Below, in pieces: positions 2,834 through 57,626 of a DNA stretch of 64,000 bases. Position 1 is the stretch's first letter, and each line of letters starts with the position of its first letter. The translations under genes were made by a program, and so were the position numbers. Source of the DNA: Anaerolineaceae bacterium oral taxon 439 (lineage in GTDB: Bacteria; Chloroflexota; Anaerolineae; Anaerolineales; Anaerolineaceae). The stretch lies in NCBI GenBank assembly GCA_001717545.1, contig CP017039.1, positions 558,001 through 622,000 of the forward strand. The letters are read 5' to 3'. The notes below the pieces were generated by a model, which saw only the letters and a program-made list of their open reading frames with translations, was not told where the DNA came from and did no database searches.

Positions 2834-4087
2834 ATGAATTCATACGCTGATATCACCCCGCCGCGCCGGCCGCGGAAATCGCGGCGATCCTGCGGCGAAA
2901 TAATCCTGCTGGCGATCGCCGCGCTGGCGTTCTCGTTCCTCGGCGCGGGCGTATTCGCGCTGATTCAGGGCGGGCTCGACGAATCGCCGGCGAACAGCGG
3001 CGAGATCGAGTCGCTTCGGAACGAAATCCGCGCGCTCCAGACGCAGGCGGCGTCAGCGCCGCTGCGCGCGCTGACGAAGGAGACGATCCGCGAAGTCAGC
3101 GTCGACAGCGAGGTCACGCGCGTCGTAGAGTCGGTCGGGCCGGCCGTCGTCACGATTACCGCCGAGAAGCCGATCGACGCCGGAAGCTACGGCTACTGGG
3201 GCTTCTTTATGCGCCCGCAGGGGTCGAGTACCAGCATGGGGTCGGGCGTCATTATTCATCCGGATGGTTACGTGCTGACGAATAATCATGTCGTCGACGG
3301 GGCTTCGTCGTTTACGATCGAGCTCGCGACCGGCGAGACGATCCCCGCCGAGCTGATCAGCAGCGACCAATTCAGCGATCTGGCGGTTCTGAAGATGAAT
3401 GGGGTGGTTCCAGCGGTCGCGGAGCTCGGCGATTCCGATTCGCTGAAATCCGGCGAAACCGTTATCGCGATCGGGTCGCCGCTGGGAAGCTTTAAAAATA
3501 CGGTCACGACCGGCGTCGTTTCCGCGACCGGCCGCTTCCTTCCGACCGATGACGGGTACTATATGGAGAACCTGATCCAGACCGACGCGGCGATTAATCA
3601 GGGGAACTCCGGCGGGCCGCTGATGAATCTTGACGGAAAGGTTATCGGGATTAACGTCATGATCGTTCGCGGGTCGTCGTCGAGCTCGGCCGGCGCCGAA
3701 GGGCTGGGGTTCGCGATCCCGTCGAATACGGCTAAGCTCATCGCCGATCAGATGATCGCGAACGGCGATTTCCAGCGGCCTTACCTCGGGATCCAATGGC
3801 AGGACCTGACGCCGCGGCTGGCGTACCGGTTCGACCTCCCGGTCAGCTATGGGACGTACGTTTATGAAGTGATCGCGGGCGGCCCGGCGGATCAGGCGGG
3901 AATCCGCGCCGGGGATATCCTGACGAAGATCGGATCGCGCTCGATCGACGCCGACGGCTCTTTCTATAACGCGCTCTTCGCGTATGGTCCGGGCGAACGA
4001 GTCAGCGTTGAGCTGATCCGTGGTTCGGAGCGTATGACAGTCGACGTGACGCTGGGCGGCGGTGCGGCTTCTTCGACGGGGCTGTAA
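2834..4087 (+). CDS. HtrA/DegP-family trypsin-like serine protease with PDZ domain
   Basis: A basic N-terminus and one transmembrane helix (~residues 23-46) anchor the protein, and the catalytic domain faces outside. The chymotrypsin-fold triad is visible: His in TNNHVVDG (~152), Asp in DLAVLKM (~183) and Ser in GNSGGPL (~258). A C-terminal PDZ domain (~310-405) contains YLGIQW and GGPADQAGIRAGD. Function by family: degradation of misfolded envelope proteins. The 417-residue length is normal for single-PDZ HtrA proteins. The start is supported by a GGAGGAG ribosome-binding site 11 bases upstream. Confidence 0.93.
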   Translation: MNSYADITPPRRPRKSRRSCGEIILLAIAALAFSFLGAGVFALIQGGLDESPANSGEIESLRNEIRALQTQAASAPLRALTKETIREVSVDSEVTRVVESVGPAVVTITAEKPIDAGSYGYWGFFMRPQGSSTSMGSGVIIHPDGYVLTNNHVVDGASSFTIELATGETIPAELISSDQFSDLAVLKMNGVVPAVAELGDSDSLKSGETVIAIGSPLGSFKNTVTTGVVSATGRFLPTDDGYYMENLIQTDAAINQGNSGGPLMNLDGKVIGINVMIVRGSSSSSAGAEGLGFAIPSNTAKLIADQMIANGDFQRPYLGIQWQDLTPRLAYRFDLPVSYGTYVYEVIAGGPADQAGIRAGDILTKIGSRSIDADGSFYNALFAYGPGERVSVELIRGSERMTVDVTLGGGAASSTGL

Positions 4088-4093
4088 ACGGCG

Positions 4094-5785
4094 ATGATAA
4101 CCGAAGGGAGACTTCGCGCCGCGCTCCGCGCTTCGGCGTGGGCCGCGCTTCTTGCCGTTGGCTGGACGCTGGGAACACGGTCCGAAGCGTCTTCGGCCGT
4201 TCTTTTCGGTTACTCGCCGCTGCGGCTCGCGCTGGCGGGCGGACTGATACTCGCCGCAGTGCTGATTTTTCTATTAATTCGGAAATCGGCCGTTTTGAGC
4301 GCATGGCTGACCGGATTTTTCGTGGTACGCGAACGCGTCTATCGGGCGTTGCTGTTGCTCTGGGTTGCGCTTGGCGTTTTGTTGTGGTGCTTCCTGTTCA
4401 GCTGGCTTTTCGTTCCGGCGAATTTGCGTCCGGCGCTGCTCTGGCTGATCTGGACGTTGGGGCTTGCGATTGCGCTCCTTCGGGTTGGGTACCGCGGCGT
4501 TTTTCGCGCGGAGCCTTTCCGCTCCCATTTCCGAATCTTCCCGCGCTGGGAGGCGATCGCCCCGGTTCAGAAAAAAACAATGGGGATCCTGCTGATCCTT
4601 TCGCTCCTGTACCTGGCGATCCTGATTCCGTCGAACCTGAACGGGACGGCGGACCTGGAAGCTTTTTCGCGGTATGGCGGCGACGAATTCGTGATTTATC
4701 CGATCCTGATGGACGTTATGAAGCCCGGGGAGACGTTCGGCGCGACGCTTTATCACCTGTTTATTTACGAGGACTATCATTACGGCTATCCCTTTTACGC
4801 CGTTTCGACGCTGCTGCTGACGCCGGTCAGGCTGATGACCGGGGCGGCGTTCCCCGATCGGGTTGACCTGAATCTGCCGATCCTCCGGATGGGGGTGTCG
4901 GTCGTCCCGCTCGTTCTCGCCGCCTGGGCGATCGTATACCTGTTTACCCGTTTCCGGCGTCCGCTCGTTTCGGCGCTGACGCTCGTTTTTCTCCTGTTCG
5001 CGCCCGGCTCGCTTCAAAATAATCAGGGCTTCTGGCATCCCGACGGACTGAACCTGTTGTTTGTCTGCCTTTCGCTCGTTTTTATCCGGCGCGACGACGA
5101 GCGTTTGGGGCGGAATTTCTACGCGGCGGCTGTCTGCGTCGGGCTGTCGATTGCGACGCGGCTTTACGGCTTTTTCTTCGCGCCGGCGATTGCGGTTTAC
5201 CTGACCGGCGCCGTGCTGCGGAAAAAGGCGACCTGGCTGCGCGCGGTTCGGGCGGGAACGATCTTCATTCTGGTCATGACGCTGACGGTCGCGCTGTCGT
5301 CGCCGTATCTTTTCCGCGCGGACGCCCGCGGACGCATGATCGAGATTCTCAGCGAAAAATCCGGCGAAATGGCGCATGGCTACGAAGGAGATTTCGATCC
5401 GCGGAACGATTACCGCCCCGGCTGGGCGGCCTGGCGCCCTGCCTTCGAGGATCATTACGTCAGGATGTTCTGCTTCGCGTTCCTCTGGGGCTCGCTCCTG
5501 ACCGGCGCGTTTCTGGGAAGCGAGCGGCTGACTTACCGGACGGTCGCGCTGTGGTCGCTGACGATTACCGCTTATCTCGTCTTTTTCGTGGCGGTTAAAT
5601 CGACCCAGTACGTCCTGCCGGCGCTGCTGCCGCTGATGGGGGCGATATTCGCGCTGCCGCTGACGATCGAGGACGCGGGGATCTTCTCGAAACGAACCCG
5701 AACGGTCGCCTGGCTCGCGAGCGGAGCCGTTTTCGCCGCGCAGCTTGTTTTGAACCTGATCCGGATCCGCCCGCGCTTTTTCTGA
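4094..5785 (+). CDS. polytopic membrane protein, GT-C glycosyltransferase-like
   Basis: 563 residues with about 10-12 predicted hydrophobic helices spread over the whole length. An acidic first large loop near residue ~195 (YGGDEFVIYP) and later helix-loop segments (LLFAPGSLQNNQGFWHPD, ATRLYGFFFAPAIAVYLTG) resemble GT-C lipid-linked-sugar glycosyltransferases of the PMT/GT39 superfamily. These move a sugar from a polyprenyl carrier to protein or glycan outside the membrane. The donor and acceptor cannot be read from the sequence. The gene starts 6 bases after the htrA stop, so co-transcription is likely. It could also be a DUF2029- or DUF2723-type protein of the same fold. Confidence 0.7.
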   Translation: MITEGRLRAALRASAWAALLAVGWTLGTRSEASSAVLFGYSPLRLALAGGLILAAVLIFLLIRKSAVLSAWLTGFFVVRERVYRALLLLWVALGVLLWCFLFSWLFVPANLRPALLWLIWTLGLAIALLRVGYRGVFRAEPFRSHFRIFPRWEAIAPVQKKTMGILLILSLLYLAILIPSNLNGTADLEAFSRYGGDEFVIYPILMDVMKPGETFGATLYHLFIYEDYHYGYPFYAVSTLLLTPVRLMTGAAFPDRVDLNLPILRMGVSVVPLVLAAWAIVYLFTRFRRPLVSALTLVFLLFAPGSLQNNQGFWHPDGLNLLFVCLSLVFIRRDDERLGRNFYAAAVCVGLSIATRLYGFFFAPAIAVYLTGAVLRKKATWLRAVRAGTIFILVMTLTVALSSPYLFRADARGRMIEILSEKSGEMAHGYEGDFDPRNDYRPGWAAWRPAFEDHYVRMFCFAFLWGSLLTGAFLGSERLTYRTVALWSLTITAYLVFFVAVKSTQYVLPALLPLMGAIFALPLTIEDAGIFSKRTRTVAWLASGAVFAAQLVLNLIRIRPRFF

Positions 5786-9495: not shown

Positions 9496-9595
<100 letters not shown>

Positions 9596-38538: not shown

Positions 38539-40053
38539 ATGAAAAGGAAGTTGTTGGTTGTTGTTCTGGTTGTTGTCGCGCTTTTAACAGTTTCAGCGCT
38601 CGTTTTCGGCGCGCCGTCTCCGAACAAGGACGATGGTACGTTGATTGTTGCTGTCCCTGACGCGCCTTCCTACATGGATCCCCAGGTTCAGGCTTCCATT
38701 GGTACTTATCGCGTGACGACACAGATTTTCGATAGGCTTGTGTCAATGGATACTGAAATGAATTTAGTCCCCGGACTTGCGGAGTCCTGGGATGTTGAAG
38801 ATGAAAAAACAACGGTTTTTCATCTCCGGAAAGGCGTAAAGTTTCATAATGGCGAGGAAATGACTTCTGAAGATGTGAAATACAGTCTTGAGCGGTGTAT
38901 TGCTTCAAGCGGCGTGAACTACAATTATTTAATTATCGACAATATAGAAATAATAGATAATTATACTATCAAGATAATCACAAAAGAACCTTTCAATGCC
39001 CTGCTTTATCGGTTAACTCTGGATGCGGCTTCGATTGTTTCAAAGAAAGCAGCTACTAGTTCCGAAGAATTTAATAAGCATCCGGTTGGTGCAGGCCCAT
39101 TCAAATTTGTTTCATGGGAGATGGGCGGAGATGTGGTTCTTGAAGCGAATGAAGATTATTATAAAGGCGCTCCAAAAATTAAAAAACTGATCTTTCGGCA
39201 GATCCCCGAAGCGTTGAATCGCGCAATTGGCCTTGAAACGGCGGAAATTGACCTTGCTTATGATCTCGCTATCACGGATCTGGATATGTTGATGGAAAAT
39301 GAGATGATTACGGTTGAAACCGTTCCGAGCACGACCGTATGGTACCTTGGTTTCAATGTTCAAAAGGAACCTCTTGATAATGTTCTGGTGCGCCAAGCTG
39401 TCGCTTATGGACTGAATACGCAGGATGTAATTGATATTGTCTATAATGGTGTTGCCTCGCCAGCGCATAATACAATGCTTCCCCCCAGATTATTCGGGTA
39501 TGCTCCGGACACAGTTGAGTATCCATATAGTATTGAGAAGGCTAAAGAGGTTTTGGCTGAGGCTGGTTATCCGGATGGTTTTGCCACAACGCTCTGGTGT
39601 TCCGACAGTCAGGTAATGCGGGATATTGCGGTTGTTGTTCAGGAACAGCTGCGAGTGATTGGTATTTCAGCAGAAATCAAGACGGTTGAGGCCGGAAATT
39701 ATTATGCTGCGACTGGCGCTGGGGAGCAGGATCTATTTATCCTTTCAAAAACTTCCATAGATCCGGATTCGATGCTCAGAGCGATGTATCATACGGAGGC
39801 TTTCGGCCTTTCCGGGAATCGTTCGTTTTGGGCGACGCCAGAAACAGACGAGAAGATAAATCAGGCTTCGATTACTCTGGAACCCCAAAAAGCGCAGGAG
39901 CTCTATCGGGAAATTCAAACGATTGTTGCGCAGCAGCTCCCATTGATACCTCTTATGATTGAAAACCTGAATGCAGGCATGCAGTCCAATGTTAAGGGGT
40001 TTGAATTGTATCCTGGAAAGTCCCATTATATCTATGGAACCTGGTTCGAATAG
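38539..40053 (+). CDS. extracellular solute-binding protein of a peptide/nickel-type ABC importer (SBP family 5)
   Basis: 504 residues. Signal peptide MKRKLLVVVLVVVALLTVSA ending in GAPS; no lipobox cysteine, so anchoring is unclear. The mature part has the family landmarks: VPDAPSYMDPQVQASIGTYR, GLAESWDVEDEKTTVFHLRK and GVKFHNGEEMTSEDVKYSLE. It captures a peptide-like or other small ligand outside the cell for the DppBCDF transporter that follows. The substrate cannot be predicted. A terminator-like hairpin after the gene should raise its expression over the permeases. Confidence 0.92.
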   Translation: MKRKLLVVVLVVVALLTVSALVFGAPSPNKDDGTLIVAVPDAPSYMDPQVQASIGTYRVTTQIFDRLVSMDTEMNLVPGLAESWDVEDEKTTVFHLRKGVKFHNGEEMTSEDVKYSLERCIASSGVNYNYLIIDNIEIIDNYTIKIITKEPFNALLYRLTLDAASIVSKKAATSSEEFNKHPVGAGPFKFVSWEMGGDVVLEANEDYYKGAPKIKKLIFRQIPEALNRAIGLETAEIDLAYDLAITDLDMLMENEMITVETVPSTTVWYLGFNVQKEPLDNVLVRQAVAYGLNTQDVIDIVYNGVASPAHNTMLPPRLFGYAPDTVEYPYSIEKAKEVLAEAGYPDGFATTLWCSDSQVMRDIAVVVQEQLRVIGISAEIKTVEAGNYYAATGAGEQDLFILSKTSIDPDSMLRAMYHTEAFGLSGNRSFWATPETDEKINQASITLEPQKAQELYREIQTIVAQQLPLIPLMIENLNAGMQSNVKGFELYPGKSHYIYGTWFE

Positions 40054-43950: not shown

Positions 43951-44946
43951 ATGATAGACAAGACGAGATGGTTAGGACTGGGTCCATGGCACGAGGATAA
44001 TGAATCAGAATTGATCGATTGGACTGTGCAACCGCAATATCAGGGGATCCTGAAGGGTAATTACTATCATGCTGAGCTACGTTATAGCGGGCGTTGGGGA
44101 GATTCGGGTCATTTAGGAGAACTTGACGTTGTTACAGACCCTGAAGACAGGGTGATTTTCGCGGAATTTAATGAAACAACAATGAGGAACTATTATGTCC
44201 GTCATTTTCAGAACGTCAGCAAAAGAAGGACAGAATTCCAGTTCTTTCAAGATTTTCATGATAAGCGGCGTAGCGTTTCTTACGGTAAGGTTCTGGCAAA
44301 TGGCTTTAAATACGTGGAAGATCAAATTCTCGCTGCAAAAAATCTGAACTGTGATTTTGACTTATTAACCGGCGCGTCTTTTTCTATGAAGAACATGATC
44401 GGGCTTACGAAAAAGATCGGCGAGGAAATTCAGGATTCTACGCATGAGAAACAAGACTATTATGGGTATGCAGAGAATTTCGGATATGGTTTAACCGGAT
44501 GGCTTCAAGTTGTACTGGAAAAAGGAAGGATTGTTAAATGCTTTTATGATGAGATTTTCGCTGATCATACAGATGAAATCCTCTATGACGAGCTGAAACA
44601 GTTCTATCGCCAATCTAAATATTATTCGACGACTTATGAAGATCCGTTTCCTTCAGGGTGGGATCGACATGCATGGCTGGTTTGCTTTAAAGACTTAAGT
44701 GACCAGTTAAATAAAAAGGTCTGCGAAACGCAGGATATGCTTGACATTACCGGACTCCCATGCGTTGATGGCCCTGATCTGGGCGTCGTCTGGGACAGGC
44801 CGCATAAAGATGATATCCCTTTGATTTCGAACAACGACGCTACCACGCGTTCAGTTACGCGTCCGCGCTCTCCAGTGTGGAATAATTATCTCAGGATGGC
44901 AAAAATTCTTTTGGATGAAATCAATAAGGATAAGAAATTTCAGTAA
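43951..44946 (+). CDS. two-domain FMN_bind-like protein, paralogue 2 (complete flavinylation motif)
   Basis: 331 residues, start directly after the dppF stop with AAAGGA upstream. No signal peptide. N-domain HLGELDVVTDPEDRVIFAEF and C-domain GWLQVVLEKGRIVKCFYDEI repeat the FMN_bind strand pattern. The N-domain contains DLLTGAS (D137, T140-G-A-S143), which fits the ApbE motif D-x-x-[ST]-G-A-[ST]; Ser143 would carry FMN. A C-terminal MLDITGLP segment occurs in all three paralogues. A covalent flavoprotein acting in the cytosol is inferred; the redox partner is unknown. Confidence 0.78.
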   Translation: MIDKTRWLGLGPWHEDNESELIDWTVQPQYQGILKGNYYHAELRYSGRWGDSGHLGELDVVTDPEDRVIFAEFNETTMRNYYVRHFQNVSKRRTEFQFFQDFHDKRRSVSYGKVLANGFKYVEDQILAAKNLNCDFDLLTGASFSMKNMIGLTKKIGEEIQDSTHEKQDYYGYAENFGYGLTGWLQVVLEKGRIVKCFYDEIFADHTDEILYDELKQFYRQSKYYSTTYEDPFPSGWDRHAWLVCFKDLSDQLNKKVCETQDMLDITGLPCVDGPDLGVVWDRPHKDDIPLISNNDATTRSVTRPRSPVWNNYLRMAKILLDEINKDKKFQ

Positions 44947-44961
44947 AGGGAATGGCATACG

Positions 44962-45930
44962 ATGGATAATGCAGGGAATTCGCCCGTTTGGTCGGTTCAG
45001 CCGCCACAAGGGTTGATTAAAGGAGATTATTACCATTTGGAAGAGCGTTTCCCGCCCTATTATCATGGCGTTGAAGGTCAGTTTCCAGATGACCCCGGGC
45101 ATCTGGGAATTGTCGATGTGATCAAGTCGGATGGGCGGATGGTATTTATTGAATTGAATGAAATCACCGCTCCATCTTACTATAATCATCTTTACAGGAA
45201 TATTTCCAAGAGACGTTCCGATTATAGTTTTTGGCAGTACACCAAAGATCGTATGAAAAAAGCGGGTTCCGTTCTTACGATGGGCCTGGAATATGTGGAA
45301 GATCAGATGCTTAAGGAGCAGCGGCTGACTGGGGAATTTGATCTTCTCTCCAGCGCATCCGGTAGCGTGAAAAAATTGCTCAAAATTGCGGATAAACTTG
45401 AGGCAGAAATAAACAAACCATCTTCGAAGAAGATGTATAGTTATAGCGAAAAGTATGGCTATGGCCTGACAGGATGGTTGCGAGTTGTCATTGAAAATGG
45501 GAAGATTGTCAGTTGTCGATTTGACGAGATATTTGCTGACAATCAGGAGGATATCGTTTGCCCTGAGCTTAAGCGATACTATCGCCAGTCAAAATATGAC
45601 TGCGCATATTATGAGGATCCGTTTCCGCCAGGGTGGGATCGCCATGCTTTTCTGGTAGGTTTCAGAACTCAAATGGATAACCTGAACGCGAAAGTTGTTG
45701 CTACGCAGGACATGCTTGACTTGACGGGACTTCCACACACCGTTGGCATTAATCTGGGCCCGATTTGGGATAAACCTCTTAACGAGAAAGCGGAGTTAAA
45801 TATGAAGGAACGTCCGGTTTATCCTGCGTGGAAAAATTACCTGCGCATGGCGAAAATCGTTTTGGCTGAGATGAAAAAGGATCATGTTTTGCAGTCGTTT
45901 ATTCGTTCAGGCGTGGGTTTGGAAGGGTAG
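44962..45930 (+). CDS. two-domain FMN_bind-like protein, paralogue 3
   Basis: 322 residues, 15 bases after paralogue 2, with AAAGGGAA upstream. It shares the two tandem domains: GHLGIVDVIKSDGRMVFIEL and TGWLRVVIENGKIVSCRFDE. The candidate FMN site reads DLLSSAS (D127, S130-S-A-S133), with Gly replaced by Ser, so flavinylation is doubtful. LKRYYRQSKYDC and DMLDLTGLP are conserved with paralogues 1 and 2. It may be a partner subunit of paralogue 2 or an enzyme with bound but not covalent flavin. Confidence 0.75.
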   Translation: MDNAGNSPVWSVQPPQGLIKGDYYHLEERFPPYYHGVEGQFPDDPGHLGIVDVIKSDGRMVFIELNEITAPSYYNHLYRNISKRRSDYSFWQYTKDRMKKAGSVLTMGLEYVEDQMLKEQRLTGEFDLLSSASGSVKKLLKIADKLEAEINKPSSKKMYSYSEKYGYGLTGWLRVVIENGKIVSCRFDEIFADNQEDIVCPELKRYYRQSKYDCAYYEDPFPPGWDRHAFLVGFRTQMDNLNAKVVATQDMLDLTGLPHTVGINLGPIWDKPLNEKAELNMKERPVYPAWKNYLRMAKIVLAEMKKDHVLQSFIRSGVGLEG

Positions 45931-46913: not shown

Positions 46914-47041
46914 ATTGACGCGGGGAGTTCGCTTTTCCTGCGGCGTAAGTTGGAAAAGGTGAATTGAAAAGTCAAACGCAGCCATGGGCAGCAGAAAGCT
47001 GAAGTTCGGTTCCATTTACCTTGACAACTGACTAAAATGTA

Positions 47042-47082
47042 ACGATTGTCATACGAAACTATTGACACAGAATGACAATCGT
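47042..47082. promoter_or_regulatory. 11-bp inverted repeat overlapping the sRNA promoter (candidate operator)
   Basis: ACGATTGTCAT (47042-47052) and ATGACAATCGT (47072-47082) are perfect reverse complements spaced by 19 bases. The second arm sits between the -35 and -10 of the promoter at 47062-47089, so a bound protein would block it. The binding protein is unknown. Confidence 0.6.
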
Positions 47083-47089
47083 CTATAAT
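47062..47089 (+). promoter_or_regulatory. strong sigma70-type promoter
   Basis: TTGACA (47062-47067) and TATAAT (47084-47089), both perfect consensus, with a 16-base spacer. The transcript would begin near 47096 and run into the terminator at 47177-47209. Confidence 0.8.
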
Positions 47090-47095
47090 CAGTCG

Positions 47096-47209
47096 TGAAC
47101 AGCAAAACTAAATTCTTCTTTTTATCTGTTTCAGCTGTTGATGTTCCTCCTTTCATCAGCAGCACTCCTTTTTCTGAAAAAAAGCCTGTCCTCCTTTCGG
47201 GCTTTTTTT
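47096..47209 (+). ncRNA. predicted small RNA with anti-Shine-Dalgarno loops
   Basis: Between a consensus promoter and a T-rich terminator lies a ~115-nt transcript without a plausible coding frame. Stem 1 pairs 47134-47143 with 47154-47163 (10 bp, one G-U) and displays TTCCTCCTTT in its loop. The terminator stem pairs AAAAAAAGCC (47177-47186) with GGCTTTTTTT (47200-47209) and displays GTCCTCCTTT in its loop. A third, single-stranded ACTCCTTTTT lies between. UCCUCCUUU is complementary to AAAGGAGGA Shine-Dalgarno sequences, a design known from other bacterial sRNAs. Function is inferred. Confidence 0.6.
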
Positions 47210-47224
47210 CGTTTAGATGGAGGT

Positions 47225-47690
47225 GAGTCTGTTTCAAATTCCCATGGAATTAAAGAAGTTCGGTGTCATGGATTATACGCTTGAAAAGTGAATAATAGAG
47301 GGAAGACATTTTTTCGCTTTTATGAATCGGGGAAGAAGCGGCAGGCTCTCATCCTCCTGGCGCTTGAAATCATCAAAACAACGCTGCCTTTCTCTTTGGG
47401 TGGTAAGTTTTCCGGTGGCATTCAGGTGCAGAAGTCTGTTGAAAATGGCGTTGAAACCTTCAGAGAAAAGAATCGTAAAAACAGGTTCCAGATCGATGGC
47501 ATCGCCATAGGCGGAACGAATGGCCTTTTTGATATGGAATAGGTCCAAAACGCGCTCAATCCATTTGGCGGAACACAGGTTAAACATAACCCCAGCCTAG
47601 GCTCCGCCGACAGCCAACAGCCTGATCGAAGGTGGCTGAACTGACTTTAGCGTCGGTTATTTGCGTGCAGATCATGGCTGCCTTCCGGAA
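47225..47690 (-). mobile_element. decayed ISLre2/UPF0236-like insertion sequence, right copy (inverted)
   Basis: Inverted and partly deleted homologue of 35667-36375. It ends at 47225-47238 with GAGTCTGTTTCAA, the reverse complement of the left copy's inner end. The transposase fragment (reading on the minus strand at 47273-47587: AKWIERVLDLFHIKKAIRSA, then EPVFTILFSEGFNAIF) keeps a part of the N-terminal catalytic region that the left copy has lost. Not functional. Confidence 0.75.
47273..47587 (-). pseudogene. UPF0236/ISLre2-type transposase fragment
   Basis: 104 codons on the minus strand encode AKWIERVLDLFHIKKAIRSA and later GKLTTQRERQRCFDDFKRQE, aligned with the left copy. The reading then jumps to unrelated residues (KAKKCLPS) at the ~260-base deletion. 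The gene is a remnant lacking both ends. Confidence 0.65.
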
Positions 47691-49782: not shown

Positions 49783-50073
49783 CTAAAAGATTAACGGTCT
49801 GTCAACGTGAATTCCTTTTTCAATACCGATATGCTCAATTTTAGTCTCATATTTATTTCCCAGGTAATAAAACCGGAGGCTATCCGTATTAACATCAATA
49901 ATCTTAGATAGCTCATGTTTCAGCTTTACCGCCTGCGCATTGTCAATAATACATTCAAAAACAGAATTCTGGACCCTTGATCCATAGTTTACACACATTT
50001 TCGCGACTTTACGCAATCTTTTTTTTCCTTCCGCCGTCTCCGTATTGACATCATAGGTAATCAACACTAACAA
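49783..50073 (-). CDS. cas2: CRISPR-associated endonuclease Cas2
   Basis: 96 residues. The ferredoxin-like fold starts MLVLITYDVNTETAEGKKRL, with the conserved Asp8 of the YDV motif; RVQNSVFECIIDNAQ is the second family block. With Cas1 it integrates new spacers at the leader end. It is the last gene of the cas operon, and the array leader begins right after its stop. Confidence 0.97.
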   Translation of the reverse strand: MLVLITYDVNTETAEGKKRLRKVAKMCVNYGSRVQNSVFECIIDNAQAVKLKHELSKIIDVNTDSLRFYYLGNKYETKIEHIGIEKGIHVDRPLIF

Positions 50074-50084
50074 CTTCTTTTATC

Positions 50085-51113
50085 CTATTTCCACAAAAAA
50101 GGAGGGTATGCATCGAGATCGCCGCGTAAATGCCGACTGAGGAGCATCGCCTGCGCAAAAGGGACAAGACCCCATTCCATCTTCTCTTTCAGGAATGGAT
50201 GCTCTAAGGTGTCCTTTTTTCGATTTTGCCACTCTGCAAGAACAGTCCGTCTCGAATCATCTTTCAATAGCACAGCGCCATTTTCTTTCTGAATAAAATC
50301 TTTTCCATTGACGATTCGCTTATTGACGAGCGCCAAGACGAATCGGTCGGCAATCGCCGGGCGCAGCTCTTCCATCAAGTCCAAAGCTAATGAAGCCCTG
50401 CCAGGGCGATCCGTATGCATCATGCCGACGTATGGGTCTAATCCGACCGTCTCAAGCGCTGACGCAACAGAGCTCGTCAGCAGCGAATAGCAGAAAGATA
50501 AAAGTGCGTTGACTTTATCCATTGGCGGACGGCGACTCCTGCCGAGGAAGACAAAATCTTTCTTTTGCTGCAAAATTAATTCATCAAAAATGCCGAAATA
50601 AACTCTGGCGGCTTCGCCCTCTTCCCCTCGGAGCTGCTCTTTGCTTTCCGCTGCCATAACGCGCGTCATCGCCGCTTTTAGAAAAGCGGACGCTTTTTTC
50701 AGCGCTTCAACGTCTACTTGCATTGGATGATCGCGCGTTACGCGTTCTAAAACCCAACGTGCGTTATAAATTTTCCCGAGAATACAATTTTTCGCAATTT
50801 CCAGGCTTTCTGCAGAATCAGCGACTTGATGCTGCTTCCTGCGAAGCAGGACGTTCCCTTTTGTCTTTCCGATAATTCTGGCCAGAAAACGACCCTGCGG
50901 CGTCATAAAACAGAGGGATATATTCCGCTCAGCGCAGGCGCCCATCAGAGCCGGACTCGCTCCGCGATATCCGAAGGAAACGATCTCTTCCAGGTTATGA
51001 AGCGGGACCCTGCCGATTTCTTTATCTCCGTCGATGATAACAACATTTTCCCCGTCAAGGGAAAGATAGCCTCCTTCAGAACTGACATACAGGACATTCA
51101 TCACCTTTCTCAT
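50085..51113 (-). CDS. cas1: CRISPR-associated endonuclease Cas1 (type I-C)
   Basis: 342 residues. The N-terminal beta domain holds LYVSSEGGYLSLDGENVVI. The catalytic helical domain has the metal-binding residues in LRGEEGEAARVYFGIFDELI (Glu), GMMHTDRPGRASLALDLMEE (His) and LRPAIADRFVLALVNKRIV (Asp). It integrates spacers together with Cas2. Its start overlaps the cas4 stop by 4 bases. Confidence 0.97.
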   Translation of the reverse strand: MRKVMNVLYVSSEGGYLSLDGENVVIIDGDKEIGRVPLHNLEEIVSFGYRGASPALMGACAERNISLCFMTPQGRFLARIIGKTKGNVLLRRKQHQVADSAESLEIAKNCILGKIYNARWVLERVTRDHPMQVDVEALKKASAFLKAAMTRVMAAESKEQLRGEEGEAARVYFGIFDELILQQKKDFVFLGRSRRPPMDKVNALLSFCYSLLTSSVASALETVGLDPYVGMMHTDRPGRASLALDLMEELRPAIADRFVLALVNKRIVNGKDFIQKENGAVLLKDDSRRTVLAEWQNRKKDTLEHPFLKEKMEWGLVPFAQAMLLSRHLRGDLDAYPPFLWK

Positions 51114-51784
51114 GAGGCGACTTCTTCCTGAAGCTTATCGTGAATGAATTTATTTACGCTGCTCGCTCTTTCGAGCTCCGGCATGCATAAATCGATCAGT
51201 GAACATCCGCGGCATCTTTTGTGTGTCTTGACCTTGGGCGTATATCCGCGGCTGAAATATTGATGCATTTCAGCAATGACATTTTCAGCTTCCATGCGCA
51301 GCTCATCCGTAATCGGGATTCTCTCTCTCCGTCGCGTCGAACCATAAAAAAGCGCTCCCTCTGAAACCCGGGCGGAAAACATCTCCTCAAGACAGAGCGA
51401 TTGCGCGATCAGCTGCATAACGTCTTCTTTCTCTACTTTGGGTCCACCTTTTTTATACTCAACCGGATAAATCGAATAGGTTCCGCGATGCCCATGGAGA
51501 CGAATTCCGTCCGGCGATTTCTGAAATTCAACCACGTCGCATTCGCCGCTGAGCCCAAGCCGCTTTGAAGAGACTGGCAGCGCACGTATAACAATTGTGT
51601 CATTGCGCTTCTCTGCCAGGTAAGGATCATGTGCGTTTTCATGCATGATTTCGCCCAGAATCGTGTGATAATTTTCTGCCCAGAGTTGTTCCAAGTGGAC
51701 TAATGCCCAACGTCTTCGACAGAACAGGAAATGTCTTATGCCAGAGATCATGAGAAAATCTTCTTCAGCGTATTCCATAGACAA
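51110..51784 (-). CDS. cas4: CRISPR-associated exonuclease Cas4
   Basis: 224 residues. First Cys in GIRHFLFCRRRWALVHLEQL. Nuclease core GECDVVEFQK (metal Asp), YPVEYKKGGPK (E-x-K), then DVMQLIAQSLCLEE. The last three Cys are in CRGCSLIDLC. It trims prespacers and selects PAM-bearing ends for Cas1-Cas2. It starts 24 bases after cas3. The split Cas4-like pair at 15.5-16.3 kb shares the fold but is not part of this locus. Confidence 0.96.
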   Translation of the reverse strand: MSMEYAEEDFLMISGIRHFLFCRRRWALVHLEQLWAENYHTILGEIMHENAHDPYLAEKRNDTIVIRALPVSSKRLGLSGECDVVEFQKSPDGIRLHGHRGTYSIYPVEYKKGGPKVEKEDVMQLIAQSLCLEEMFSARVSEGALFYGSTRRRERIPITDELRMEAENVIAEMHQYFSRGYTPKVKTHKRCRGCSLIDLCMPELERASSVNKFIHDKLQEEVAS

Positions 51785-51808
51785 CTCGCTTGAAAAAAAG
51801 AATAGAAA

Positions 51809-53986
51809 TTAAAAGTCAAGAAAACTGGTTTTGGTTTTTTCCTTCCATAAAACCCCTTTCATGTACCCGAGAAAATCGTCGTAATCAAGCATCCATTGAT
51901 AAATATCCGGAGCGATCATCTTGAGATTCATGTCGGATTCCTTGCCCTTCCGAATATTAAAAGAATGATTCTGGATCAATCGCCAATTCCCTTTGCCGAA
52001 TTGAACGTTGCGAATCAATTCCGGATCAAAAATCGCGACAACCGTATGATCTTCAATCACATTAAATTCTTTCGCTACCGTTTCAAAAGCCATCTCTTTT
52101 TCTTTATCAAGAAAATAATGAACGGTTCTTAAAACGCTGTCATTTTCCGTGATCTGGTCCTCTATGGCTTTTGTACTCAGCGCAGGAGATATTTCTTTGC
52201 CATTGACGAAATACTTTTTCAGAATCTGCGCGGACAGCTCAAACCCCTTATGATTTGGAAAAGAATCGTTATCCTGAAAGGTAAAATCCCATATTTCAGC
52301 GTTTGGATAACGTCCATGCCGATTGACTCTTCCCGATGCTTGAATGAGCGAAAGCAAAGAGGCCGTCTGGCGGAATCCTGTTCGAAACGAGAAATCAACA
52401 CCGGCCTCCACACAGGAAGTTGCTACCAGCGTCCAATCCGTATCTTTTTCATCCTCTAACCGAGCCTTAATACGCCGAACTGTAATGGCTCTGTCCGCCG
52501 CGGTCAGCGCAGTTGACAGATGCTCAATATGGTCTCTCCCATAGCGGCTGCAGAGTTCATCTGCGACAACCGCAGCACACTTGATTGTGTTGACGATGAC
52601 CAAACGTGGGCCGGGAAAAGATTGGGTCCAGTCTATGAATTCATCCAGGCTTAACGGCTGATCGTTTCTCTGAAAAGTGATCCGGTCTTTTTCATATTGC
52701 ATGAGCTGATTTCGCAGCTGCGAGGGTACCAACTCGGGAATTATCGGATGATACTCAGTCAGTCGGTTCAATTTCCAAAATTCAACTAAGGAGCCTGACC
52801 CAAGGACCCAATAGCAGCTCCATTCTTCGGCGAGTTTAACCATCCATTTCCAGGCCAGCGGCAGCAGGGTTAAAGGCAGCGATGCGTGAGATTCGTCGAT
52901 GAAAAACGCGGATCCTGGCAATTCGTGCAGCCGTCGAAGCGTAGACGGATAATTCGACGCCAGCGTTTCGTAAAAAGCCACCGCTGTTGTCACGATGATT
53001 GGCGATCGCCATAAACTGGTTAGATACCGGGTCTCTTTGTCTTCGAAATCCGCTCTGGAATGCAGCTCGGCGACGACCTTTTCAGGGTCCTCCCCGGGCA
53101 GTGTCAGCGCCCGGCGATAAACGTCGACAGATTGTGTAATAATTGTCGTAAACGGAAGGACGACAAATATCCGGCGCAATCCGCGCGAGGAAGCTTGTTT
53201 CAGCAGGTGTGCCATAACGGCCGTTGTTTTTCCGGAACCAACTGGGCTGTCGCAGGATACAAACTGGGAAGCCTGGACAGAATTGCGGCAATTTTCATAC
53301 ATCTGACTTCGCAGATGGCTGCGCGGATCAGAAGTCTCTAACGACTTAACGTACGCGTCAAGTTGTTTCAAACGCTCTTCCGCTTGGAGTTCTGGCATCT
53401 CATCCAACGTTGGGTACTGACCATAATTCTCAGCTGTATTTGTATGATCCGCGTCCGTCAGACAAGATAAAAGCAATCTTATGAAGAGGTTCTGATCGCC
53501 TTCGTAAGATTCCGTTGGATATGTAATTGTAGTGTCATAAATCTGATGATGAATCTCCGCGATTCGATCCAATTCTTTATTCGTCCGCTCGATTACTTCT
53601 GGTTGGGCATCTCGAAACGCGTTCCCTTCGCGATTGAATTCTTTTTGAAAGTCAGGCAGCCCGCGATGATGCGCAAAGACGGAAATTGCGGCATAATTCG
53701 CTTCTTTGTTCAAAAGGTAAGCAACTCCTGCGTCTTCATGATGAATTGGGAGGCGGGCGCTTTTTTTATCGCCGCGTAAAACCTCCTGATTTTCTTCGAG
53801 AAGTTTGCCGAAATCATGGAGACTGGCGCCGGCATCCGTATTTTCGGTCAGAAGGCCCTTCGATTGGGTTGCAAATCGCTCTGCTTCTTGAGCAAAGCGA
53901 TTTGCAAGCCGGTGAACGTTTTCTACATGATCCCGATAAGTTTGCGCCGGAATGTCTCCTTTGGGACTGTGCGCAAAGTATTCCAT
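51809..53986 (-). CDS. cas3: CRISPR-associated helicase-nuclease Cas3
   Basis: 725 residues. N-terminal HD nuclease: HVENVHRLANRF (H20) and the metal site SLHDFGKL (H57-D58), with later His (HHEDAG, FAHHRG). SF2 helicase: Walker A SPVGSGKTTAV (~247-257), motif II FFIDESHASL (DESH ~364-367), and motif VI QASGRVNRHGRYP. Cascade recruits it to unwind and degrade target DNA. It lies between cas7 and cas4 rather than first in the operon, as is usual for type I-C. Confidence 0.97.
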   Translation of the reverse strand: MEYFAHSPKGDIPAQTYRDHVENVHRLANRFAQEAERFATQSKGLLTENTDAGASLHDFGKLLEENQEVLRGDKKSARLPIHHEDAGVAYLLNKEANYAAISVFAHHRGLPDFQKEFNREGNAFRDAQPEVIERTNKELDRIAEIHHQIYDTTITYPTESYEGDQNLFIRLLLSCLTDADHTNTAENYGQYPTLDEMPELQAEERLKQLDAYVKSLETSDPRSHLRSQMYENCRNSVQASQFVSCDSPVGSGKTTAVMAHLLKQASSRGLRRIFVVLPFTTIITQSVDVYRRALTLPGEDPEKVVAELHSRADFEDKETRYLTSLWRSPIIVTTAVAFYETLASNYPSTLRRLHELPGSAFFIDESHASLPLTLLPLAWKWMVKLAEEWSCYWVLGSGSLVEFWKLNRLTEYHPIIPELVPSQLRNQLMQYEKDRITFQRNDQPLSLDEFIDWTQSFPGPRLVIVNTIKCAAVVADELCSRYGRDHIEHLSTALTAADRAITVRRIKARLEDEKDTDWTLVATSCVEAGVDFSFRTGFRQTASLLSLIQASGRVNRHGRYPNAEIWDFTFQDNDSFPNHKGFELSAQILKKYFVNGKEISPALSTKAIEDQITENDSVLRTVHYFLDKEKEMAFETVAKEFNVIEDHTVVAIFDPELIRNVQFGKGNWRLIQNHSFNIRKGKESDMNLKMIAPDIYQWMLDYDDFLGYMKGVLWKEKTKTSFLDF

Positions 53987-53988
53987 TC

Positions 53989-54849
53989 CTACCCCATTAA
54001 GTCGACAACCGAAGCCAGGCGGACCGCGAGGTTTTCAGGAAGCGAAGTCCGATCTTCATAATCTTCCCAGCAGGTTGACGGATCATCTTTATGATCGCGG
54101 CGGATCGGCGTCAGGGCTTCGATTAACAGGTATTCCGGACAGCTGCCCAGAATATTCTTGTGCTCCATGTACCAGGCATGGCGAATCCGAATATCCGGAC
54201 GAATCGCGGAACGGTTCATTTCATACGCATGCGGTATTAATAACTTCAGCAGCTCGATATCATCCTCTGTACAGCCGCTATGATACGCAAAATTCGGATT
54301 CACGTAGAACGGCATGCAGTATACGCCATGTTCAACGAATCGGTAAGCCAAAGGCGCCATACCCGCGTTTTTTCCTTCCTGAACGCCGGCTTTATTGGTA
54401 TTGGTTTGTCGTTGAACGCTGATCGGAGAAATCGATACGCCCATTCCGAATTGAACGACCCCGGTTTTGATGAACCCTTTATCGCCTTCTTTTTCTAAAA
54501 AGGTGTTCCCAAAAACGCGGGCGTCCCAGTATTTTTTGACAAAAGTACTCTGAAGGAAACTCCCGCCGTCTTTCATTTCTGCGGTAATCGAGGCTCGATC
54601 CCGGCCTCGATGTTCCAGGATATAGTACCGGTCTTGATTGTGGAATTTTTCAGGTAGCGTATTGAAAAATGGCGCTGAATGATCGTCGATCAGGTCGCGC
54701 AGTTTTCGTTTGAAAGAAACCGGAGAAATCTCCCCACAGCCATTCGGACGCTGGCGGGGATCGCTCTCGCGATCCGGATCGCCGTTCGGATTCGAGTTGA
54801 CAACTTCAATGACAAGAAAACCAGTAGCACGTTTTATCAATTCGTTCAT
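53989..54849 (-). CDS. cas7c: CRISPR-associated protein Cas7/Csd2 (type I-C backbone)
   Basis: 286 residues. Starts with the Csd2 hallmark GFLVIEVVNSNPNGDPDRES and has VSFKRKLRDLI, then AMTPxY-like HKDDPSTCWEDYEDRTSLP at the end. Multiple copies form the crRNA-binding backbone of the I-C Cascade. It is separated from cas3 by 2 bases. Confidence 0.95.
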   Translation of the reverse strand: MNELIKRATGFLVIEVVNSNPNGDPDRESDPRQRPNGCGEISPVSFKRKLRDLIDDHSAPFFNTLPEKFHNQDRYYILEHRGRDRASITAEMKDGGSFLQSTFVKKYWDARVFGNTFLEKEGDKGFIKTGVVQFGMGVSISPISVQRQTNTNKAGVQEGKNAGMAPLAYRFVEHGVYCMPFYVNPNFAYHSGCTEDDIELLKLLIPHAYEMNRSAIRPDIRIRHAWYMEHKNILGSCPEYLLIEALTPIRRDHKDDPSTCWEDYEDRTSLPENLAVRLASVVDLMG

Positions 54850-54886
54850 TTTGACCTCTTCTCAATCTATTTGATAGGATCGGAAA

Positions 54887-56959
54887 TTATTCCGTTACTT
54901 CTTCCGCAGGTTCCGAATCTGTCGTGCTTTCCCGTTTCGGGAAAGCGGCTAAAAATCCAATAAACAGCTGCGCTTTTTCTGCGTCGTTGAATCGCGTTTC
55001 AGGATTCCAGACTGTGTAAAGTTTGGTCATATTTTTTTCATAAAGGGATATAAGCCATTTCGCTTTCCAGCTTTCCGAACCTTCAGCTGTAACATTCTTG
55101 TACTGATAGGTTTTTGCCCAGGTAATATAGGGGTTCATTCGCTGCGCAAGCACGTTCAGCGTCCGGATCGGCGTTTCAACGGCTGACGGGTAAATACTAC
55201 TTCCGGCTAATTGCGGAGGCAGGTCGCCGTTTCGAACAACCCGGCAATATAAGGCGTGAAGCTCATCAGAGATCTTCAATAATTGCCCGTAAAGATACGG
55301 AAAGTCTTCCATGTAATTTTCCTTTCTGATTCCAATACGATATAGCAAGAGTCCGAACAAAGAAAGCTGGTCGCTTACCTTGTAGATTGCCTTGTCTTCA
55401 TCGGCAGGTTTTTTGGCATTGTCATTTTTTTTGAAAAACCTGATGCCAATATATGGGATTAGATTGATTGAACCCTGAACTGCCATGTGTAAATCCTGGT
55501 CGGTTGGGATTCCTGTGTCCAGAAGCAGTTCCACGCCATGATATTCAGGAACTGGCCGGAACTTATCCGTCACAATCGTTCCATCCAGTTTCCATACGCG
55601 GTTCAGGATGGATGGGACTCTTGCCGGGAAGAGCGTTCTGGGCCTGAGTCGCGCGATCTGTGGAAGATTCTGACACCCCAGCGTCCAGGCTTCGCTTAGT
55701 TTTTCCATTTCAGGTGCATTGCTTACTTTAGAGTAGACGATTTTTGTCCGTGCTCTATCAATCTTTCTGAGAATAAAGAATTGAATCCGATCCGCGTTCG
55801 AATCGGCGCCTGGAACATGTGTCTGTTTTAAATTTGTGATAAACCGTTCTGCCTCTGTTTCGAAAGATGCCTGTTCATCTAATGCAGCTTTGAACATTTT
55901 GGTAAACGAAACCTTGATTTTTGGCAAAGTATGCGGATATGCAAACAGAATGATGTCTTTATCCAGATTTATCCAGGTCTCTTCCTTGTGTTCCGCTCTG
56001 CTGATCCAGTTTAACGCGGTTTGCAAATCAATTCGCATTTCAGGCGAGATTGGATAGGATCCATCATCAATCTTTCCATAACGATATTGACAGTGATGTG
56101 CGTGAAACATCGTCCGCAACGTCGCATCAAACCCGCCGGCAAGTCTTACAGAGGGCATTATTTCAGTAAACGGGCTAAACGCAAGGCCAAACGCGTCTAC
56201 CGAATTTCTGCCCGCCGTCACCCGGTTCCCTGACTCTGCTTGCATGAGTTTCTGATTGAACGATTCGACGAACTGTTCGCTGACGGCTGGGATCCCGGCT
56301 TCGATAAGCCGTTCACAATCAAATGCAACGGAAAGGTTTTCCGGTGCTTCCTTTTTTGATTTGTGATCACCTTCTATTTGAAATAATACATGCAGCGCAA
56401 GATCAATGTCAATTTTCGCCTCCAACTTCTCAAATAACGCTGATTCGAGAGCAGCACGAAACACCTTGGAATCAGAGATCAGATCTGTTTCAGAGATGAG
56501 AATTTCGATCGGTTCAAAGCTGTTTTCGCATGATAACATTTCATGGATCTCTTTTGTAACGTTTATGAGAGATACGCGATATTTTTCTATAAGCCCTCTT
56601 ACCCAGTTATCGTTTTCAGGCACACACCAACTTCGGAGCCTGCCGATTAATTCTGGCGTCAAAGTTTCGGCGTTCAACGATCCGATCGTTTTTTTGGATT
56701 CCGGATCGTTGATTCGATAGAGCGGAGCCAGATTTAAGAATGGATATGTCCCGTTATTCGTTCCATACTTTCGAAGGCCTTTTCCTAATTCAGCGGGAAT
56801 GGATCGAATCTGAGTTATTTTTCCGCTTGACAAAATAAATTGAATGCAGGGAGTTTTCAACGTTATTTTGGGAATAGGCTTGTACTTACGATGATAACTC
56901 GGCGCAATGATATTATGCTTCTTCATCGTGACGGATAATGGGTACAATTCATTAATCAT
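54887..56959 (-). CDS. cas8c: CRISPR-associated protein Cas8c/Csd1 (large subunit)
   Basis: 690 residues. The Csd1 pattern is visible (TPCIQFILSSGKITQIRSIP at the N-terminus; HLNPDNTNPAY-like segments are replaced by variants). It is the large Cascade subunit that recognises the PAM. In many type I-C loci an internal start yields the small subunit Cas11c from this gene; an internal ribosome-binding site was not resolved here. It overlaps cas5 by 8 bases. Longer than the usual ~600 residues. Confidence 0.9.
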   Translation of the reverse strand: MINELYPLSVTMKKHNIIAPSYHRKYKPIPKITLKTPCIQFILSSGKITQIRSIPAELGKGLRKYGTNNGTYPFLNLAPLYRINDPESKKTIGSLNAETLTPELIGRLRSWCVPENDNWVRGLIEKYRVSLINVTKEIHEMLSCENSFEPIEILISETDLISDSKVFRAALESALFEKLEAKIDIDLALHVLFQIEGDHKSKKEAPENLSVAFDCERLIEAGIPAVSEQFVESFNQKLMQAESGNRVTAGRNSVDAFGLAFSPFTEIMPSVRLAGGFDATLRTMFHAHHCQYRYGKIDDGSYPISPEMRIDLQTALNWISRAEHKEETWINLDKDIILFAYPHTLPKIKVSFTKMFKAALDEQASFETEAERFITNLKQTHVPGADSNADRIQFFILRKIDRARTKIVYSKVSNAPEMEKLSEAWTLGCQNLPQIARLRPRTLFPARVPSILNRVWKLDGTIVTDKFRPVPEYHGVELLLDTGIPTDQDLHMAVQGSINLIPYIGIRFFKKNDNAKKPADEDKAIYKVSDQLSLFGLLLYRIGIRKENYMEDFPYLYGQLLKISDELHALYCRVVRNGDLPPQLAGSSIYPSAVETPIRTLNVLAQRMNPYITWAKTYQYKNVTAEGSESWKAKWLISLYEKNMTKLYTVWNPETRFNDAEKAQLFIGFLAAFPKRESTTDSEPAEEVTE

Positions 56960-57626
56960 GAACCGTCTCCTTTCGCTCCGGATATGTTAAGACCCCGTTT
57001 CGAATAAAAATATTCGTGTCGTAAATTGCGTTAAATTCTGATTCGTATCCGTCTGAAAAAACTTCCCGGAGCATCGACGGGATCGGAATATCCGGTAATT
57101 CAGTATGGACTCGCGTATTATCCCGGAATGGGCCAAAATACGATGCTGTAAATTCGCTCCATCCTAAGCATAATGTTCGGAATGATTGCCCCCGTTTTAA
57201 CCTCCGGTTGAATATTTCCTGATAGGCATGTCCCGGGGATGTCGTTCTCCGATCCCAATCCAATGCATTGGCTGGCATCTTACTTTTCCCAGGATTTGGA
57301 ACAACGTCAGCATACAGCCGATAACAGACGTCTAAAAGAACGGTTGCGTACAACTGATAATTATTCCCTTTTGTAAATGCGTCCGGACTCCGTAATGGGC
57401 CGCCATAATTGGTTACGTATGAGTGAAATTGCGGCGGGGAACAGAGTTCAACCTTTCGCGGGATGATTTGAATTGCTGGCCCCCAGAGGATTCCCTCGAA
57501 AAGCGCCTTCGCCGCTGAATAGGTTGGCGCAGGGTAACTGCAAGGGGAATCGCCGCAATCCGGCCGCGTCCACATCGCAGTGGGACCTGCAATTTCGAAA
57601 GAAACTGAATAGCCTTTATAGTTCAC
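56952..57626 (-). CDS. cas5c: CRISPR-associated protein Cas5c (Cas5d, crRNA-processing)
   Basis: 224 residues. Cas5 start GYSVSFEIAGPTAMWTRPDC and PAPTYSAAKALFEGILWGPA, then IQIIPRKVELCSPPQFHSY. In type I-C this subunit also cleaves the pre-crRNA repeat, as Cas6 is absent from such loci; none is visible here. First gene of the cas operon, with a consensus promoter upstream at 57689-57717. Confidence 0.95.
   Translation of the reverse strand: MNYKGYSVSFEIAGPTAMWTRPDCGDSPCSYPAPTYSAAKALFEGILWGPAIQIIPRKVELCSPPQFHSYVTNYGGPLRSPDAFTKGNNYQLYATVLLDVCYRLYADVVPNPGKSKMPANALDWDRRTTSPGHAYQEIFNRRLKRGQSFRTLCLGWSEFTASYFGPFRDNTRVHTELPDIPIPSMLREVFSDGYESEFNAIYDTNIFIRNGVLTYPERKETVHD

Follow-up and report, generated by a model that had tools for sequence, protein, structure and literature searches.

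A candidate repressor-controlled small RNA family of the Flexilinea flocculi genus, predicted to pair with the translation starts of solute-binding-protein mRNAs

Introduction

GcvB of Escherichia coli is a trans-acting small RNA (sRNA) that represses ABC-transporter mRNAs, including dppA and oppA, and acts on oppA at the translation initiation region (excerpts of PMC9988348). The alpha-proteobacterial AbcR1 and AbcR2 also have ABC-transporter targets, with an exposed anti-Shine-Dalgarno (anti-SD) motif UCCUCCC and three predicted hairpins, and AbcR1 represses livK (excerpts of PMC3712013). In the streptococcal csRNAs an unpaired region between two stem-loops is complementary to the Shine-Dalgarno (SD) sequence and start codon, and their promoters are under one regulator (excerpts of PMC3091779). 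In ar14/NfeR1, anti-SD motifs lie in unpaired parts of several hairpins with differing stems (excerpts of PMC10746234). Here we analyse a 64,000-nt stretch of Anaerolineaceae bacterium oral taxon 439 (contig CP017039.1, positions 558,001 to 622,000; hereafter the window), which carries a predicted sRNA gene of ~113 nt at about 47097-47209 (plus strand). Our preferred reading, to which we assign a probability of roughly 0.55, is that of a repressor-controlled, trans-acting sRNA blocking translation of uptake-protein mRNAs.

In the proposed mechanism, a transcription factor would sit on both of two dyads and keep the sRNA promoter off, and the sRNA would be made once the factor departs. Its 5′ arm would then pair over the SD, start codon and initial Lys codons of exported-protein mRNAs, above all those of ABC-transporter solute-binding proteins, and this pairing would stop ribosome loading. 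An ACUCC linker, plus two UCCUCCUUU loops added in the lineage of the window, would give extra anti-SD contacts. If this is true, the GcvB/AbcR-type solution, in which an sRNA throttles ABC solute-binding proteins, arose anew in another phylum, and both targets and operator sites are testable in the cultured species Flexilinea flocculi. Anaerolineae are common in anaerobic digesters.

Members of the family are denoted below by their genomes: G000 holds the window, and the others are G001, G007, G008, G009, G010 and G011. GcvB and LhrC are both held in Rfam. At gathering score, Rfam gave no match over the sRNA in the window, and at E up to 10 six loci gave 15 matches, among which the GcvB, AbcR, LhrC, ar14/NfeR1 and csRNA families do not figure; we thus see no sign of descent from any of them. 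Sub-threshold matches over the sRNA, to mir-278_2 (E 0.046, G000), SorX (E 0.055, 24.0 bits against 46.6, G011), mir-92 and STnc390 (both G011), were taken as chance. The inferred function is the same as that of GcvB. The predicted arm pairing at solute-binding starts beats most or all shuffles in three genomes, and a GcvB/AbcR-like repression of solute-binding mRNAs at the translation start is a candidate mode of action. The proposed arm nevertheless differs from GcvB in covering the start codon and Lys codons. No sequence relation to AbcR was found; the seed motif differs, and the longest pairing here is made by the 5′ arm, not by an anti-SD loop. The copy in the window, and this copy only, resembles LhrC of Listeria monocytogenes in that loop A, the linker and the terminator loop each carry a CU-rich motif (excerpts of PMC4132741), a likeness of action rather than of membership. 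However, the motif is UCCUCCUUU here and CUCCC/UCCC in LhrC, the loops are missing in six of the seven members, and LhrC is multicopy whereas the Flexilinea sRNA is single copy. The family layout is similar to that of the csRNAs as these are described in the excerpts cited, yet csRNAs are CiaR-driven, have several copies and other sequences, and the dyads here suggest a repressor. Likewise, the window copy shares its layout with ar14/NfeR1 as far as the excerpts describe it, where three hairpins each carry an ultraconserved CCUCCUCCC; that motif is absent here and the loops are not conserved. The sRNA therefore works, as far as prediction goes, in a manner of a known kind, and its family is new. 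The open-licence literature listings that we searched held no report on regulatory sRNAs in Anaerolineae; one entry on candidate structured RNAs (PMC2864571) names Chloroflexi.

Results and Discussion

Promoter and structure of the sRNA gene

A preliminary description, made from the letters of the window without database searches, had proposed an sRNA transcribed from a consensus promoter and ending in a bidirectional-looking terminator, with two C/U-rich loops and a third such motif in the linker. The promoter is exact: a sigma-70-type TTGACA-16-TATAAT matching at 12/12 positions (47062-47089, plus strand), with the -35 at 47062-47067 and the -10 at 47084-47089. A perfect promoter with a 16-18 spacer on the same strand arose in 0/5000 shuffles of the local 300 nt. 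Downstream, the predicted sRNA would begin at GGGACAGC with a conserved and weakly folded 5′ arm of 36 nt, GAACAGCAAAACTAAATTCTTCTTTTTATCTGTTTC (47097-47132, plus strand), the predicted pairing arm for solute-binding-protein mRNA starts. The arm is followed by a hairpin (47134-47163, plus strand) with a 10-bp stem and the loop TTCCTCCTTT (also given as UUCCUCCUUU), a single-stranded linker ACTCCTTTT (RNA ACUCCUUUUU; 47164-47172, plus strand) and a terminator-like hairpin (47176-47210, plus strand) with the loop TCCTCCTTT (RNA UCCUCCUUU). The plus strand of 47096-47211 folds to -33.7 kcal/mol compared with a shuffle mean of -15.6 (z -5.94; none of 200 shuffles equally stable), and the minus strand of this region gives a z of -2.07. 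The predicted terminator stem has 13 bp, with 7 A on its 5′ strand and 7 T on its 3′ strand, hence its bidirectional appearance; this hairpin is missing from the output of a simple terminator scan of the window.

The loops and linker are as had been described: TCCTCCTTT occurs at 47145-47153 and 47189-47197, both times in a predicted loop and with no third copy in the window, and CTCCTTT sits in the linker. Two copies of TCCTCCTTT arose in 0/20000 shuffles of the 116 nt, and any repeated 9-mer in 778/5000. Plus-strand coding was considered and rejected: a 47-aa open reading frame (ORF) runs from the ATG at 47141 in the window and is without counterpart in relatives.

A family within one genus

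The 186-nt region around the sRNA has one match at E <= 0.001 in its own genome and is thus single copy. BLAST against 61 genomes, its own included, found the region again in five further genomes of the genus, at E values from 5.5e-9 to 3.8e-6. A covariance model built from these five relatives with the window excluded (R1), and run on 147 genomes of the family Anaerolineaceae, scores the window at 51.1 bits (E 5.5e-7) and finds a sixth relative, G008, at 71.7 bits. This covariance search recovers the window together with six relatives. A second model of seven sequences (R2) was run on 400 genomes of the order and matched in six, all from the GTDB genus of Flexilinea flocculi; the R2 matches listed do not include G011, which was either not drawn or lost to stricter filters. 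All seven accepted members belong to this genus (Anaerolineaceae, Chloroflexota), with one accepted copy per genome, and no member was accepted outside it among the 147 genomes of the family and 400 of the order.

Several weaker candidates were set aside. Twelve further R1 places (<=33.6 bits), read in register, include one with ACTCC, another with TTCTTC and none with CAGCAAAA, and several resemble the antisense of a gene start. A BLAST match in G001 (contig C13, E 4e-4) lies, by eye, ahead of an ABC-permease-like frame of another genome and was not used. Scanned with a degenerate pattern, the named genome collection gave 16 stretches, of which six are the relatives and ten were judged chance by eye; its single viral match was likewise judged chance.

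What the members share is (near-)invariant sequence of the form G[GA]ACAGCAAAA(G)C..A.ATTCTTCTTTTT(TT)ATCT.TTTC, a 5′ arm some 38 nt long, and downstream of the hairpin an ACTCC in 7/7 members, within CACTCCTTTT in six and GACTCCATTT in G008; the linker is identical in those six and reads ACTCCATTT in G008. Between arm and linker, the hairpin stem co-varies: 7/8 stem pairs have changed on both sides, 55/56 cells are paired and 0/500 shuffles equal this, a count biased upward because the alignment was fitted to the same structure. The window has the core by which we define the family, namely a 5′ G[GA]ACAGCAAAA...TTCTTCTTTTT arm, the co-varying hairpin and the ACTCC linker, and also a promoter with two dyads 32-33 bp apart (8/10 at both). 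From its relatives, promoter and covariation, the gene is judged to be a member of a real sRNA family, and the small RNA that had been proposed stands on the same grounds. A terminator-like hairpin follows the linker and folds in G000, G001 and G011.

Non-conservation of the loops had been named in advance as evidence against the proposal. The loops are indeed not conserved, since TCCTCCTTT is in none of the six relatives, whose loops are mostly A/U-rich, and what is conserved is the linker and the 5′ arm. The UCCUCCUUU loops are therefore private to the lineage of the window among known members, the hairpin loop at 47134-47163 being lineage-specific on a family-wide stem, and their role as the working part of the family is not supported. 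Nor is the suggested kinship with alpha-proteobacterial CCUCCUCCC-loop RNAs supported, that motif being absent from the sequence.

The minus strand of the arm in G007, G009 and G010 reads like the start of a signal peptide (MEKDKKKNFAFAVP), and the minus strand of the linker resembles a strong SD, so the feature might instead be a small minus-strand protein gene (AAAAAGGAG then MEKDKKKNFAFAVP...). We consider this extremely improbable: only 3/7 members keep the ATG; the reading frame is interrupted in G001 (LEKDKKEEFCFCCP) and, immediately ahead of the core, in G008; G000 has DKKKN in frame and no ATG there; and G011 is without such an ORF of >=25 aa. Moreover, a whole hairpin lies between the SD-like sequence and the ATG, and the conserved promoter is opposite in direction.

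Genomic position

We found ssb in 12 of 14 genomes of the genus, and in six of these the sRNA lies directly upstream of it on the same strand. In G000 the ssb gene has no sRNA upstream; the single sRNA copy is at 605,040 of the contig, compared with 228,713 for ssb, and its neighbours are ApbE, a transposase-like remnant and a CRISPR array. The ssb-bearing genomes without the sRNA (G004, G005, G006, G012 and G013) form a separate clade in the SSB tree (97/100); the tree does not order the seven bearers among themselves. G002 and G003 are ~80% complete and gave no ssb match, so absence of the sRNA there says little.

This arrangement invites the alternative of a cis-acting ssb leader, and the transposase-like remnant adjoining the feature in the window that of a mobile hairpin or piece of an insertion element. 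Against both, the G000 copy is far from ssb yet keeps promoter and structure, the terminator-like hairpin follows in G000, G001 and G011, and there is one accepted copy per genome; we hold this explanation to be very improbable. The remnant itself (47273-47587, minus strand) is a possible transposase-like gene fragment and perhaps a trace of relocation. It has three matches in G000 (frames of 107-115 aa), the transposase-like fragments of that genome being 47273-47587 of the window, G000:C1:593775-594005 and 1531174-1531287, and longer frames of 286, 297 and 192 aa occur in G009, G002 and G010. Against an NCBIfam transposase-like model the match of the remnant is weak (E 0.021), far under the cut-off of the model.

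Promoter control

A -10 (TATAAT or CATAAT) lies 7-9 nt ahead of G[GA]ACAG in all seven members, with a -35 of TTGACA in G000, G001, G008 and G011 and of TTGCGC or TTGCAT in G007, G009 and G010. Each of the seven promoters also carries two TGACA-NN-TGTCA-like dyads, one upstream of the -35 and the other between -35 and -10, at a spacing of 33 bp (32 in G009 and G010). In the window, the upstream dyad TAACGATTGTCA (47040-47051) matches 8/10 consensus positions, where five other members match 9-10/10 at the same place; that of G008 is weak at 7/10, a score which also arises by chance elsewhere in these regions. The downstream dyad TGACAATCGTCT (47073-47084) again matches 8/10, lies 33 bp from the first and ends on the first base of the -10. 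Because one dyad lies between -35 and -10, the expected effect of a bound factor is repression, and the arrangement suggests that the sRNA promoter is under repressor control.

Across the 14 genomes of the genus the motif ATGACANNTGTCAT has 27 sites compared with 3 for a reversed control, with none in G000, G008 or G010. The paired-dyad pattern gave 22 rows of matches, 11 at six sRNA promoters, 2 at G007:C439 and 9 single rows, the last comparable to the 6 rows of its control. Taken on both strands, the pattern marks five sRNA promoters and one other place; the G009 sRNA promoter does not fit it. The pair at G007:C439 is upstream of a possible 24-aa membrane peptide, and in G009 and G010 two small membrane peptides adjoining FMN-reductase genes likewise have dyads of this kind ahead of them. 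Three loci, L113 ~4010-4650 (G009), L081 653-850 (G007) and L136 ~2460-2950 (G010), contain possible membrane peptides of 22-39 aa that follow TGACA-NN-TGTCA dyads and lie downstream of FMN-reductase genes; these are perhaps a second target of the same regulator. A CRP/FNR protein, a guess at the regulator, was rejected: no TGAC[AG]NN[TC]GTCA occurs in the 86 kb of 30 loci taken from the listed PF13545 matches.

Predicted targets

The target evidence is computational and consists of RNAduplex energies on sampled stretches of G000, G009 and G001, in which simple gene calls gave 645, 520 and 542 starts. The G000 16S 3′ tail is GGATCACCTCCTTTCT, and 9 nt of it, CCTCCTTTC, are common to both loops of the window. 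Over 46 window starts, loops 1 and 2 prefer gene starts to coding sequence (CDS) by 2.67 and 2.29 kcal/mol, with 3 and 0 of 200 composition-matched shuffles as good. The anti-SD complementarity that had been claimed for the loops is thus borne out in the model, and their pairing is, on these energies, general anti-SD behaviour. In the same 46 starts, the linker was no better than its own shuffles (72/200), nor was the core 47097-47175 (75/100). A conserved target of the linker alone was sought and rejected: AAAAGGAGTGC followed by a start gave 12 matches in 14 genomes, one being the antisense of the sRNA itself, and only two recur, both in G002 and G011: a start resembling that of a lipoprotein and a site ahead of a 9-aa frame.

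The sequence of the 5′ arm is like that of a translation start read in antisense, with SD, AUG and Lys codons. The best partner of the arm in G009 is the start of a solute-binding protein at -32.3 kcal/mol (rank 1/520, next -25.3; Pfam SBP_bac_1), and in G001 again a solute-binding start at -36.0 kcal/mol (rank 1/542; Pfam SBP_bac_1), followed by an amino-acid-kinase gene at -29.4. In G000 the dppA-like gene at 38539-40053 (plus strand; Pfam SBP_bac_5) is a candidate target, its duplex of -24.9 kcal/mol, about -7 to +29 around the start codon, being tied best of 645 with the start at 25307. Among the best exported proteins scanned, Pfam found solute-binding proteins in 5/10 for G000, 3/5 for G009 and 3/4 for G001; as a rough baseline, 94 exported proteins of G000 include 11 Peripla_BP_4, 7 SBP_bac_1, 4 SBP_bac_5 and 4 Bmp among other, partly overlapping families.

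Solute-binding starts were labelled by phmmer with ten seeds picked among the top hits, which favours the preference, and with these labels they outrank all others at Mann-Whitney p of 0.0016 (G000), 0.0014 (G009) and 0.0009 (G001), taking 5, 4 and 3 of the respective top 20 places where 0.9, 0.5 and 0.6 are expected. Of 300 arms shuffled with matched dinucleotides, 8, 0 and 0 reach this preference when labelled starts are compared with a sample of 150 others, and 4, 0 and 0 attain the best solute-binding energy, in the same order of genomes. The rest of the RNA has no solute-binding preference (p 0.97, 0.59 and 0.98). Solute-binding proteins also stand out from other exported proteins in G009 (p 0.0009) and G001 (p 0.0002), and for exported proteins as a class compared with others, 0/200 shuffles are as extreme in G000 and 5/200 in G009. 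The overall lowest arm energy is reached by 6/200 shuffles in G009 and 0/200 in G001. Moreover, all 14 solute-binding duplexes at <=-20 kcal/mol span the start codon. When the arms of G001, G009 and G008 are tried on all three genomes, a solute-binding start comes first every time; the G008 arm had no part in the choice of labels.

A number of results weigh against the preferred reading, and several of them concern G000. There the overall lowest arm energy is ordinary (66/200 shuffles as low), the difference from other exported proteins reaches only p 0.078, and over the 46 window starts the arm's preference for starts is no better than that of its own shuffles (42/100). The G000 arm pairs with G000 solute-binding starts at -24.9, and the arms of its relatives at about -31, which gives no indication that the G000 arm is tuned to targets in its own genome. 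Without the seeds, p rises to 0.031, 0.032 and 0.019 (G000, G009, G001) with a mean difference of 1.5-2.2 kcal/mol, and the exported class in G001 is not significant (21 and 25/200 shuffles as extreme). RNAduplex energies are also free of competing structure and accessibility, the arm itself being weakly folded. Finally, by eye, no clear terminator directly follows the linker in G007, G008, G009 and G010.

Two other modes of action must be weighed here. The RNA might be a general anti-SD sRNA in the style of LhrC or the csRNAs, whose CU-rich stretches dampen many mRNAs with a strong SD, and the solute-binding preference would then be a by-product of CU-rich sequence meeting AAG-rich signal-peptide starts. 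The linker ACUCC kept in 7/7 members is in keeping with this, as are UCCUCCUUU loops that copy 9 nt of the 16S tail and prefer starts over CDS, and, whatever genome an arm comes from, it pairs well with solute-binding starts in each of the three genomes tested. However, the dinucleotide-matched arm shuffles seldom give the preference, and neither linker nor core outdoes its shuffles; we regard this explanation as rather unlikely. Alternatively, rather than pair with mRNA, the sRNA might hold a protein, such as an RNA-binding protein with a preference for CU-rich single strands. Long invariant CU-rich single strands and a hairpin of variable sequence would suit protein binding too, yet complementarity of the arm to solute-binding starts over ~35-40 nt would be unexpected and no partner protein is known here, which makes this improbable. 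We retain the arm-mediated block of solute-binding-protein translation as the preferred reading.

Origin of the arm and loops

A broader account can be offered as a possibility that we ourselves find doubtful. This Chloroflexota sRNA might use the nucleotide signature of exported-protein starts, made up of the SD, the AUG, Lys codons and the beginning of the signal-peptide code, as its address label, and a single RNA could in this way shut down many uptake proteins together. In one lineage the gene might have moved beside the CRISPR locus, its arm become weaker and anti-SD loops of the LhrC type been gained, so that a multi-site riboregulator evolved by convergence. The family would thereby be a case of anti-SD loops gained in one lineage while the pairing arm weakened. 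Judging from its sequence, the arm may have originated as an inverted copy of the start of a solute-binding gene. A G001 start in locus L212 is near-antisense to the arm over about 40 nt.

Neighbouring genes

The sRNA had been suggested to control the adjacent flavin genes, and this is not borne out. Ranked among 56 window starts for loop 1, linker and loop 2, these genes come mid or low (43951: 45, 49, 53; 44962: 34, 26, 47; ApbE at 45936: 23, 28, 30), and the location is not common to relatives. The FMN_bind label given to 43951 and 44962 is not confirmed either, as Pfam finds no such domain there. The two frames, 43951-44946 and 44962-45930, lie between the dpp operon and ApbE and encode two proteins of similar appearance (331 and 322 aa), neither of which matches a Pfam family at E up to 0.001. 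Duplex prediction against dppB had been proposed as well. The solute-binding gene of that operon at 38539 is the tied best start for the 5′ arm described above, but dppB does not rank high (loop 1, linker, loop 2 of 56 starts: 21, 31, 26 for 40138; 50, 42, 37 for 40060). Later genes of the operon are high for one element each, 41078 being second for the linker and 42976 third for loop 1.

On the other side of the sRNA, a CRISPR array runs from about 47890 to at least 48600 (repeat-like ORFs to ~49500) and is followed by minus-strand cas genes at 49783-57626 (Pfam identifies Cas1, Cas7 and Cas5), which we take to be of type I-C. The cas5 start (57626) has a strong SD, AAAAGGAGG, and ranks 3/56 for the linker, 6/56 for loop 1 and 16/56 for loop 2. 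Elsewhere in the window, a SAM riboswitch lies at 9496-9595 (minus strand, 92.6 bits).
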